Shown here piece after piece: positions 4,365 through 29,762 of a stretch of DNA of 33,813 nucleotides (position 1 is the stretch's first letter; each line of letters begins with the position of its first letter). Under the pieces are notes generated by a model that saw only the letters and a program-made list of their open reading frames with translations, was not told the DNA's origin and searched no databases. Position numbers and translations under genes: made by a program. Where the stretch lies: positions 1 to 33,813 of the forward strand of contig CAMOGP010000003.1 in assembly GCA_946614175.1 (NCBI GenBank), given 5' to 3'. This stretch comes from an uncultured Prevotella sp. (GTDB taxonomy: Bacteria > Bacteroidota > Bacteroidia > Bacteroidales > Bacteroidaceae).

Positions 4365-5957
4365 TTATTTCTTATTATCTACTGCTGCCTGCTCAATGGG
4401 GAGGCACTTCTTGTAGTTCTCGATGTATTTTTCGAAACCTGCCACATCTTCTGCAGTGGGTGCGATGCTCACACCTGTATTGCCAGCAAATACCACCGTC
4501 TCCAGATAGTCTGCCAGAGACAACTTGTTGGGATTGTTCACCACATAACCAGCCAGCAGGGCGATACCCCATGCACCACCTTCACCAGCAGTCTCCATCA
4601 CACTGATAGGACTATTCAAGGCTGCTGCCAACATACGCTGACCTACGCCGGCTGTCTTGAAGTAGCCACCGTGACCAGTAATACGATCCACGCGAATCAT
4701 CTCGTCCTTAAATAGGATATCGTTACCGATTTTCAGCACACCGATGGCACCATAGAGGTGGGCACGCATGAAGTTAGCCAGGTTGAACTTGTCATTAGCT
4801 GAGCGCACAAACATGGGGCGACCTTCGCTGAGGCCTGTAACAGGCTCACCGCTGACGTAGTTGTAGGCCATCAGACCACCACAGTCGGCATCACCTTCCA
4901 GTGCCTTGTTAAATAGTTTGCCGAACAGCTCGTTCATATCTACCTTCATGCCCATCAACTGCTGATACTCCTTAAACAGACCTACCCATGCGTTGATGTC
5001 AGAGGTACAGTTGTTACAGTGTACCATAGCCACAAGACTTCCGTCGGGGGTTGTCACCATGTCAATCATCTCGTAGGGCTTTGACAGGGGCTTCTCCAAT
5101 ACAATCATTGAGAAAGATGATGTGCCTGCGCTAACGTTACCCGTGCGCTGCTTCACAGCATTGGTAGCTACCATACCTGTGCCAGCATCACCTTCTGGAG
5201 GACATACCGGGCATCCAGGCTTCAGATGGCCACTTACGTCCAGTTTCTTGGCACCTTCGGGAGTCAGGAAACCCGCATTTTCGCCCGCATTCAGACTCTT
5301 AGGCAGAATGTCGAGCAGTTTCCAAGAGAAACCTTTTGGAGCCACCAGCTCGTCGAATTTCTTTACCATCTCAGCATCGTATGTTTTCGTAGCGGGGTCT
5401 ACAGGAATCATACCTGAAGCATCGCCTACGCCCAGTACAAACTCGCCAGTTACCTGCCAGTGCACGTAACCTGCCAGTGTTGTCAGGAATTTGATGTCTT
5501 TGACGTGCTCCTCATTGTCAAGGATACACTGATACAGGTGTGAGATGCTCCATCTCAGGGGAATGTTGTAATTAAACAATTCTGATAGTTTGGCAGCTGC
5601 CTTGCCTGTATTTGTGTTACGCCATGTGCGGAAAGGCACCAGAATCTGCTGGTCCTTGTCGAATGCCATATAGCCGTGCATCATGGCCGAGAAGCCGATG
5701 GCAGCCAATTGTTCAATCTCACAGTCATACTGTTTCTGCACGTCTTTGCGTAATTCAGCGTAACAGTCCTGCAGCCCGTACCATACAGCCTCGGTAGAGT
5801 AGGTCCACAGTCCGTCAATGAGCTGATTTTCCCACTCGTGTGAGCCCTGAGCAATGGGGTTGTTGTCTTGGTCGATAAGTACGGCCTTGATGCGTGTGGA
5901 ACCGAATTCGATTCCCAAAATGGCTTTACCAGCCTCAATGGTTTGTTTTGCGGTCAT
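4365..5957 (-). CDS. FGGY-family carbohydrate kinase (probable pentulose kinase, L-ribulokinase or xylulokinase)
   Basis: ATP-dependent sugar kinase, 530 residues from the ATG at 5957 ([10 protein letters not shown]). This start is preferred over the track's 6017 because the extra 20 residues overlap a good promoter and look non-coding. FGGY features: N-terminal phosphate-binding [12 protein letters not shown], substrate region [12 protein letters not shown] and WRNTNT, the central [13 protein letters not shown], and the C-terminal adenosine motif [17 protein letters not shown]. It is the first gene of a unit with tkt and rpiB, so its product should feed the pentose phosphate pathway. From memory, similar kinases sit beside tkt and rpiB in Bacteroides arabinose clusters, which suggests L-ribulokinase; xylulokinase is the main alternative. 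The exact sugar cannot be read from sequence. Confidence 0.85.
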
Positions 5958-5986
5958 TGTTTTTCTAAGTTTTGAAGTTTTGACTG

Positions 5987-6018
5987 CAAAGTTAACACTT
6001 ATTTTGCGAATGACCAAA
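5987..6018 (-). promoter_or_regulatory. Bacteroidota-type promoter for kinase-tkt-rpiB
   Basis: On the minus strand a TTTG (6015-6018) is followed after 20 bp by TAACTTTG (5987-5994), matching the -33/-7 pattern of the phylum. The predicted start lies about 25 bp upstream of the ATG at 5957. It also supports the shorter kinase start. Confidence 0.65.
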
Positions 6019-6048: not shown

Positions 6049-6150
6049 TTACTCTATGACTTTTAATGTCAACCCTATGGCTTTTAGTTCGTAACTCTAT
6101 GGTTTACGATGCGTAAACCTATGGTTTATGATGTGCTAACCTATGGTTTT
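6049..6150. repeat. Five phased CTATGG repeats upstream of the kinase promoter
   Basis: CTATG(G/A) occurs at 6054, 6075, 6097, 6119 and 6141, spacings of 21, 22, 22 and 22 bp. The better units carry dyad symmetry, AAACC-TAT-GGTTT, separated by variable sequence such as TAGTTCGTA or ACGATGCGTA. The array begins about 30 bp upstream of the -33 box of the kinase promoter and runs away from it. Spacing of two DNA turns places every unit on one helix face, as in a multi-site protein-binding region. No binding protein can be named. Confidence 0.7.
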
Positions 6151-6158
6151 CTCAAGGA

Positions 6159-6272
6159 GGGACAGATGGGACAGATGGGACACTGGTTTTTTAAGAACTC
6201 TTTGCGTACCGTGCGCATATATGTACGCGAAGAAACTCTAGAAATCCTCTGTCCCCTCTGTCCCCTGTCCCC
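6159..6272. repeat. Nested inverted repeat with GGGACAGAT arms, after uxuA
   Basis: The left arm (6159-6182) is GGGACAGAT in two full copies plus GGGACA. The right arm (6250-6272) is its approximate complement, three TGTCCCC units. Inside lies a second inverted repeat, CTTTGCGTAC / GTACGCGAAG (6200-6209 and 6223-6232), with one G-T mismatch. It begins 6 bp after the uxuA stop, so transcribed RNA could form one long hairpin. It could end or stabilise the uxuA transcript, or be a dispersed MITE/REP-like element. With the phased repeats it fills most of the 320-bp gap; no further gene is seen there. Confidence 0.7.
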
Positions 6273-6277
6273 AAAAA

Positions 6278-7531
6278 TTAGTCGAAGAAACCAGGTTGCT
6301 TATAAGGGATTCCTAACTCTCGGTCAACTGTTGCAAGGATGCCTTGAACCTGACCGAGTGCAAACATGCGTCCCAGAAGGGTGTAGCCGGCATTGTGTCC
6401 GTGACTGCTTTCGTCCATAATACCACCAGGTTCGTCAGTGAACGTCATACCGTGGTCAACACGCATAGGAAGTGCTGGGTTTTCTTTCTCGAAGATACGG
6501 CACAGTTCAATGAGGTCGGCACGTCCGCCTAGATGGGAAGCCTCGGTGAAGTCTCCGTTGGGGAAGATGTGACATGAGCGGAGGTGGACGAAGTGAGTGC
6601 GAGAGGCAAATTTCTTAGCTAACTCAACTACGTTATTGTAGGCACCGGCACTCAAAGAACCAGCACAGAAGGTTAAACCATTATGCTTGTTGGGCACTGC
6701 GTCGAGGAACCACTGAATATCCTCCTCGGTGCGTACGATACGTGGTAATCCGAGTATCTCGATTGGGGGATCGTCTGGATGTACGCACATGTTCATGTTG
6801 CACTCTTCGCAGACGGGCATGATGGCCTCAAGGAAGTATTTCATGTTTTCGCGTAACTGCTTCTTGTCTATGCCTTTATATAAGTCAAGGAACTCGCGGA
6901 ATTTCTGGATTGGAGCTTCGTCGTTTTCGCTGAAATTTCCAGATACAAAACCCTGTGTTTTGATAACGATAGTCTCTACCAACTTGTGGTCTTTTTCGGG
7001 TGTCATGGTCTTGGCAAGCTCGTCGCATTCGGCTATGACACTGCGACCTTCTCCCCAGCCTTCAGGAAACTGGAATTTCTCCCATTCCTCGCGAGCACCT
7101 GGACGTTTCAGAATGTAAATGTCGAAATAGGCGAACTCGGCATAGTTGAAGTAGAGGTTGGTGGCACCATTAGGATTATCGTGGAACAAGTCGGTGCGAG
7201 CCCAGTCTAATACAGGCATAAAGTTGTAGCAGATGCAGTGGATTCCTTCTGCGGCAAGGTTGCGCAGGCTTTCTTTGTAAACCTCGATTTGCTGGTCACG
7301 GTCAGGGCCGCCATACTTGATGGTTTCGACCACGGGGAGTGATTCTACTACGCTCCAGCGCATGCCGTAGCTTTCGATATATTCGCGCAGTTCGCGGATT
7401 TTTTCGCGAGTCCATACCTGACCAAGTGGTACGTCGTGCAGGGCTGTAACGATGCCCTCTACACCGATCTGTCTCAGTTGTGCAAGAGTTATCTTATCCT
7501 TCTTGCCAAACCATCTCCAAGTTCTTTCCAT
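6278..7531 (-). CDS. uxuA: Mannonate dehydratase
   Basis: Dehydrates D-mannonate to 2-keto-3-deoxy-gluconate in glucuronate catabolism. It has 417 residues from the ATG at 7531 (MERTWRWFGKKD); the track's extra 13 residues overlap the promoter region. UxuA-type features are MERTWRWFG and GVEGIVTALHDVP at the N-terminus, metal and active-site segments MNMCVHPDDPP, TFCAGSLSAG, HLRSCH and MRVDHG, and the conserved tail NAGYTLLGRMFALGQVQGI. It faces away from ileS and stands alone; the next gene on its strand, the sugar kinase, has its own promoter 250 bp on. No uxuB or uxaC is in the window. The full set of family motifs makes the call secure. Confidence 0.94.
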   Translation of the reverse strand: MERTWRWFGKKDKITLAQLRQIGVEGIVTALHDVPLGQVWTREKIRELREYIESYGMRWSVVESLPVVETIKYGGPDRDQQIEVYKESLRNLAAEGIHCICYNFMPVLDWARTDLFHDNPNGATNLYFNYAEFAYFDIYILKRPGAREEWEKFQFPEGWGEGRSVIAECDELAKTMTPEKDHKLVETIVIKTQGFVSGNFSENDEAPIQKFREFLDLYKGIDKKQLRENMKYFLEAIMPVCEECNMNMCVHPDDPPIEILGLPRIVRTEEDIQWFLDAVPNKHNGLTFCAGSLSAGAYNNVVELAKKFASRTHFVHLRSCHIFPNGDFTEASHLGGRADLIELCRIFEKENPALPMRVDHGMTFTDEPGGIMDESSHGHNAGYTLLGRMFALGQVQGILATVDRELGIPYKQPGFFD

Positions 7532-29582: not shown

Positions 29583-29762
29583 TTACTCAGCAACAACAGC
29601 TGTGTCAGCAGCAGTAGTGTCAACTGTAGCAGTAGTGTCAACGGCAACAGTAGTGTCTACCTCAGCGATTGAATCTGTAGCAACCTCCTCAGCGGGTTTG
29701 TTACCATTACCACAAGCTACGAACATAGCTGCAACTGCGAACATAAATGCAATCTTTTTCAT
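29583..29762 (-). CDS. Small lipoprotein, 59 aa, with VDTT repeats
   Basis: This gene is too short for the ORF track. ATG at 29762 opens a 59-residue frame: signal peptide MKKIAFMFAVAAMFVAC with lipobox FVAC (Cys17), then a short, acidic, threonine-rich mature part with repeats EVDTTV-AVDTTA-TVDTTA. No domain is recognised. A TACCTTTG promoter box and a dedicated terminator flank it, so it is a complete single-gene unit and may be well expressed. It could be a cell-surface or periplasmic lipopeptide; the repeated low-complexity mature part gives no hint of enzymatic function. Confidence 0.85.
   Translation of the reverse strand: MKKIAFMFAVAAMFVACGNGNKPAEEVATDSIAEVDTTVAVDTTATVDTTAADTAVVAE
29611..29664. 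repeat. Three 18-bp tandem repeats inside the small lipoprotein gene
   Basis: Units GCAGTAGTGTCAACTGTA (29611), GCAGTAGTGTCAACGGCA (29629) and a diverged ACAGTAGTGTCTACCTCA (29647). Each encodes one hexapeptide of the VDTT type, so copy number could vary between strains without a frameshift. Confidence 0.8.

Follow-up and report, generated by a model that had tools for sequence, protein, structure and literature searches.

We found that the five-unit array between the uxuA and kinase genes of an uncultured Prevotella sp. is best explained, together with a long hairpin that adjoins it, as a single non-coding element that belongs, as a solo copy, to a dispersed family. The window, the whole stretch of 33,813 nucleotides that was analysed, carries this element in the spacer between the uxuA stop codon (6278) and the kinase start codon (5957), both genes being on the minus strand. 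The comparison of genome sequences established that the family is composite and dispersed, that it keeps a fixed period with a free unit sequence, that it is linked with vapE genes and that the window's array is absent at orthologous kinases. Since the architecture resembles that of SaPI/SCC origins, we read the module as origin-like, and the window element may well be a detached copy of a VapE-island module that has spread as a non-autonomous repeat. The coordinates are collected in Table 1.

Table 1. Coordinates of the element and of its neighbours in the window
Feature	Position	Strand	Remark
Five-unit array	6051..6150	-	period 21-22 bp, dyad units AAACC-TAT-GGTTT
Long hairpin	6159..6271	-	arms of 9-bp repeats around inner palindrome
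Conserved hairpin core GCGTACCGTGCGCATATATGTACGC	6204..6228		invariant alignment columns
uxuA (mannonate dehydratase)	6278..7531	-	neighbour, outside the element
Kinase promoter and start	5955..6018	-	neighbour, outside the element

The initial annotation had described five phased CTATGG repeats. Five units at steps of 21-22 bp were confirmed; they start at 6051, 6072, 6094, 6116 and 6138 (steps of 21, 22, 22 and 22 bp) and carry CTATG(G/A) at 6054, 6075, 6097, 6119 and 6141. The first unit reads CTATGA, and the exact CTATGG is present in four of the five. The dyad noted for the better units was seen in the best ones. TRF detected the array as two overlapping rows. At lag 22, 33 of 44 positions match, while the best score at any lag from 10 to 60 did not exceed 28 in dinucleotide shuffles of the spacer, and 33 was reached in 0 of 2000. 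On the minus strand the array reads AAACCATAGGTTTACGCATCGT, and this unit family, in this sense, is common to an array on another contig of the same genome (C48) and to the array of a vapE cluster in genome G034. By analogy, the geometry makes the binding of dimers on one helical face plausible.

Two sets of 9-bp repeats, left unconnected in the initial annotation, proved to be the arms of a single hairpin adjoining the array. One arm is GGGACAGAT at 6159-6182 and its complement lies at 6246-6266, continuing to about 6271, with the inner palindrome GCGTAC...GTACGC between them. Folded as single-stranded DNA, the hairpin reaches -30 kcal/mol (z -6.5), and none of 200 shuffles was as stable. The uxuA stop codon is about 5 bp away. 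A covariance model built from 13 seeds, the window copy among them, matches the window at 6163-6273. The Rfam search gave two weak matches far under the gathering score and none above it.

Searching the same genome with the DNA sequence, we found the second array on C48, again near such a hairpin, and in both copies the hairpin adjoins the array. Two further genomes were matched via the hairpin and have arrays of other sequence beside it. The core pattern matches 15 of 200 genomes of the genus, some matches being different sequence. In the genus, the hairpin model matches 79 of 398 genomes and often finds several copies in one; among genomes of the family it matches 5 of 201, which belong to three genera. 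Most of the genomes are draft MAGs, and the completeness of the window's own is about 72%. Almost all named carriers are MAGs of Prevotella, Prevotellaceae or Bacteroidaceae from the ruminant gut. Four of 34 stretches came from other bacteria, were unmatched by the hairpin model and are about as many as expected by chance. Collections of plasmid and phage records gave no match to the element, and neither of two viral contig matches to the loose core pattern was matched by the hairpin model. Our literature search found no description of a hairpin-array element.

The structure of the hairpin persists while its arms change. Each of the 46 hairpins folded singly exceeded its shuffles in stability by a wide margin (mean z -10, weakest -4.1) despite differing arms. 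RNAalifold on the hairpin model gave only 9 pairs because the arm sequences differ between copies, and structure was therefore judged from folding each copy. Palindromic intergenic repeats of the ERIC or REPIN type are about 110-130 bp long, form one long hairpin and occur in several copies per genome. The element resembles them in size, intergenic place, single long hairpin and copy number; unlike them, its arms vary within one genome yet stay complementary, and many copies carry a phased array. Paired adjacent hairpins were seen at six loci (L169, L176, L194, L197, L222 and L223), with arm sequences that differ in some.

The hairpin and the array occur together far beyond the window. A 21/22-bp array lies within 300 bp of 45 of 74 hairpins, always on one side only. 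Control periods gave one array at 19-20 bp, two at 23-24 bp and none at the other periods tested; of 3000 windows of 300 bp drawn at random from the own genome, 10 contained a 21/22-bp array. The 74 hairpins are partly non-independent, some being from one genome, which leaves the period contrast unaffected. Near the other 29 no array was detected, and genome G236 has near-identical hairpins without arrays, so that hairpin and array are able to travel apart. In genome G128, a composite of about 470 bp, made up of two hairpins and an array, occurs at two unrelated loci in near-identical form except for its unit number, which indicates that the module was duplicated as such. Neither terminal repeats nor target duplications were evident by eye at one duplicated pair and the G236 and G479 copies; for the window copy, the differing gene order of the relatives offered no empty site for comparison.

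The proposal that the array regulates the kinase promoter did not hold up, and we regard it as highly improbable. In its favour are the same-face spacing, the dyad units and the distance from the promoter, where the gap to the -33 box (TTTG, 6015-6018) is about 33 bp, close to the 30 bp given initially; the -7 element TAACTTTG follows at 5987-5994 and the ATG at 5955-5957. The initial annotation had named conservation upstream of orthologous kinases as support for regulation and copies at many unrelated sites as its refutation. The window's array is absent at the orthologous kinase in 29 relatives, where the upstream gene order differs and uxuA is not beside the kinase, and relatives lacking it have similar kinase promoters. 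Other element or array sequence was found there in only two, a related element with a DUF4248/HTH-like start in G144 and an unrelated 22-bp array in G171. Copies of hairpin plus array lie at many unrelated loci, some of them with the window's own unit family, and the solo ones are in random orientation. Because the hairpin is near-symmetric and the model orientation uncertain, the array side was used in its place: where solo elements carry an array, the gene next to it has its start towards the array in 16 cases and its end in 17, which fits spread into intergenic space and not promoter control. These results are of the kind that the initial annotation had given as refuting its regulatory reading. 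Behind uxuA, three of the 29 relatives (G134, G034 and G144) have a hairpin and/or array of other sequence, the rest none, and this too argues against a kinase regulator. The element can thus be explained without any role in kinase control.

The spacer behind uxuA (window, L359, L364 and L365) or upstream of uxuB (L190) carries a hairpin and/or array in several species, with a different sequence in each. It is either a recurrent landing site or the place of an old copy with fast turnover.

The initial annotation's other suggestion, a short array of a dispersed repeat, was supported, with the difference that the unit sequence is not conserved among copies. Unit sequences are unrelated among many loci (for example AAGTATGATACTTAGACATCGT, GTTTGAAGCCTCCAAACGGGGC, TGAGTTAACTCAAATCATCGAT and AAAAGTGGCTCACTTTCGTATC), while the period of 21/22 bp and, often, the dyad symmetry persist. 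Dyad symmetry is enriched over 46 arrays (mean z 1.8, 19 individually below 0.05, none in some arrays), with a combined Z of about 12 that is approximate since the arrays are partly related. Non-coding tandem arrays of the own genome peak at periods 21 and 22, with nine each against at most three at any other period from 10 to 60; this survey covered about 1.44 Mb of 2.2 Mb and includes a few doubtful arrays at threshold level. Most of these arrays have neither hairpin nor vapE nearby, and in a search for strong hairpins near the other arrays of the genome only that of the window clearly stands out. The array surveys covered genomes within the order, and we do not claim confinement to Prevotella.

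The family is linked with vapE genes. Intact loci have the order vapE, hairpin, array (where present), a small DUF4248 or HTH gene, HU-HIG and amidase, and the hairpin overlaps or abuts the vapE stop codon. About 50 of 73 hairpin loci lack any gene of the vapE cluster, and the window copy has no vapE on the same contig. In some loci the tail of vapE or the start of DUF4248 is left (L214, L192), clusters such as L201 are visibly decayed, and decayed clusters and bare modules occur within the same genomes. Surveying vapE loci within the genus, where a few loci were fetched twice and many end short upstream, we found 22 arrays with a 21/22-bp period, whereas six other periods gave none. Eighteen of the 22 are no more than 700 bp from vapE and mostly precede it, usually by 30-170 bp or by about 400 bp as measured from its start. 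Tandem direct repeats adjacent to a helicase gene are thus a property of the family and not of the window copy. The VapE proteins belong to PF05272 and match phage helicase/primase families. The cluster VapE matches PDB 7pds ('Similar to D. nodosus vapE', E 6e-14), a SaPI Rep helicase. Units track the relatedness of their VapE proteins only weakly (rho 0.19, permutation p 0.004).

A 21/22-bp array accompanies each of the two vapE-like genes found in the own genome. One is a PrimPol-VapE fusion gene (L063, G000:C20, 8612-11913) that has the 21-bp array AATAAGGGCGGGTTATT about 43 bp upstream and is followed by a tyrosine integrase gene; the locus sits between two similar susC/TonB-type receptor genes and is probably an integrated island. 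Upstream of the second gene (L067, G000:C24, 17044-19300), at about 400 bp, is a TCCCANNNTGGGA array, and a DUF6078 gene follows behind; similar arrays are found at about the same distance in G031, G033 and G020. Genome G024 has four islands, about 95% identical over several kb, with an array just upstream of PrimPol-VapE. The genes behind them differ (L332-L335, G024:C1; by eye, for example, an ATPase-like gene and a HigBA-like pair) and are possibly variable defence cargo.

From these arrangements we infer protein binding, an origin function and a route of spread. In its full form the module occupies the intergenic space that separates a VapE-type replicative helicase gene from its neighbour in a small conserved cluster of rumen Prevotella. 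The 21/22-bp dyad units would act as iterons, bound on one helical face by a protein of the cluster, the candidates being VapE and its possible partners, for example DUF4248 or HU-HIG. The hairpin would serve as an inverted-repeat or single-strand start signal. Solo copies may have arisen where the genes were lost and only the module stayed, and also where the bare module was duplicated into new intergenic sites.

The pairing of hairpin and array, the period specificity, the order of vapE, hairpin, array and DUF4248 in intact clusters, the arrays flanking vapE and the match of VapE to 7pds support an origin-like module, as does published precedent. Origins of SaPI and SCC have short direct repeats directly downstream of the helicase gene, and SCC adds inverted repeats, possibly hairpins (PMC7581432). 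The likeness lies in repeats beside a replicative helicase gene and in the sequence relation of the helicases. The repeats here differ in being 21/22 bp long, mostly dyad-symmetric and wholly different between copies, many of which are solo, and the origin function is putative. Satellite iterons can be semi-palindromic, as are the PLE RepA_N iterons (PMC7145576), and plasmid and satellite iterons likewise form short arrays of semi-palindromic direct repeats in a replicon control region. Their initiator is of a different family, and the use of our element by any replicon is putative. The origin-like reading is weakened by arrays without hairpin or vapE, by hairpins without arrays and by the weak tracking of VapE. 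Specificity may be set by a partner protein, or the arrays may be satellites of another cause. A bolder extension, which we consider unlikely, is a large class of fast-diversifying origin modules in which geometry (the 21/22-bp period, the dyad units and the adjoining hairpin) is selected while the recognition sequence turns over from copy to copy as if evading cross-recognition by rival islands, and in which bare modules spread through Prevotella genomes by parasitising VapE replication.

A less probable explanation is a selfish non-coding repeat of MITE or minisatellite type with no origin function. Its hairpin would be the transposable part and be mobilised in trans, the array would be an adjoining satellite that expands and homogenises, and the vapE link would reflect only shared mobile-element neighbourhoods. 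Multi-copy bare hairpins, random orientation and the differing unit number of the two near-identical G128 copies all fit, and there is a precedent in the same bacterial order, the BrickBuilt elements of Porphyromonas gingivalis, in which a 23-bp minisatellite lies inside a MITE (PMC4596501). Both are intergenic and multi-copy and combine a tandem array of about 22-23 bp with non-repetitive flanks. BrickBuilt, however, has one repeat sequence, IS5-like terminal repeats and leader and tail segments, whereas in our family the unit sequence differs per locus, a hairpin forms the flank and inspection by eye showed no such terminal repeats. The family is thus multi-copy, intergenic and non-coding like a MITE and lacks one shared repeat sequence. 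Arrays that lie just upstream of vapE genes without this hairpin are not expected of a selfish repeat, and neither are a period fixed at 21/22 bp and an enrichment of dyads among unrelated sequences.

It is rather improbable that the arrays are tandem operators of the cluster's DUF4248/HTH gene, to which its product binds cooperatively, with solo copies as relics or imported regulation. At several intact loci the array reaches the start codon of this small gene, an arrangement that fits operators equally well as an origin. Dimers spaced by 22 bp on one face are also a known regulatory geometry, since BvgA dimers line one helical face beside a promoter, with site centres 22 bp apart (PMC7250471). 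BvgA sites share this phasing and differ in having one recognition sequence and a role in gene control, while the arrays here are dispersed, of unrelated sequence and random in gene orientation. Against operators, arrays at the other vapE genes mostly lie upstream of vapE itself, no array precedes most of the DUF4248 genes that were fetched, and the own genome has solo elements although DUF4248 was not found in it.

Our results connect an unexplained intergenic repeat of bacteria that are abundant in the rumen with small islands that encode a replicative helicase. Candidate origins of these islands can be sought by a simple signature, a 21/22-bp dyad array next to vapE. If the origin-like reading is true, the turnover of repeat sequence with kept geometry would make origin specificity and incompatibility testable over many natural variants. 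Such arrays should not be taken as regulators of whatever gene adjoins them.

Other repeats were observed alongside these. In the own genome (G000), arrays sharing the core CCACGACGTGG lie at three unrelated intergenic loci with no hairpin or vapE nearby (L024 19350, L081 13705 and L092 7327), and the palindrome ATTCACTCGAGTGA occurs at three intergenic loci (L097 12156, L075 1730 and L125 1480), once as a 22-bp array. Many short intergenic microsatellites with a 7-bp unit, (TAAGATG)n and (TCAAATC)n for example, were seen, as at L068 3505, L074 11039, L091 11206, L121 5462 and L125 1500 of this genome, and some DUF4248-linked hairpins of other genomes (L291, L292) have arms of similar short repeats. 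The window itself has an 18-bp tandem repeat, GCAGCAGTAGTGTCAACG, at 29602-29657, apparently inside a short coding sequence.
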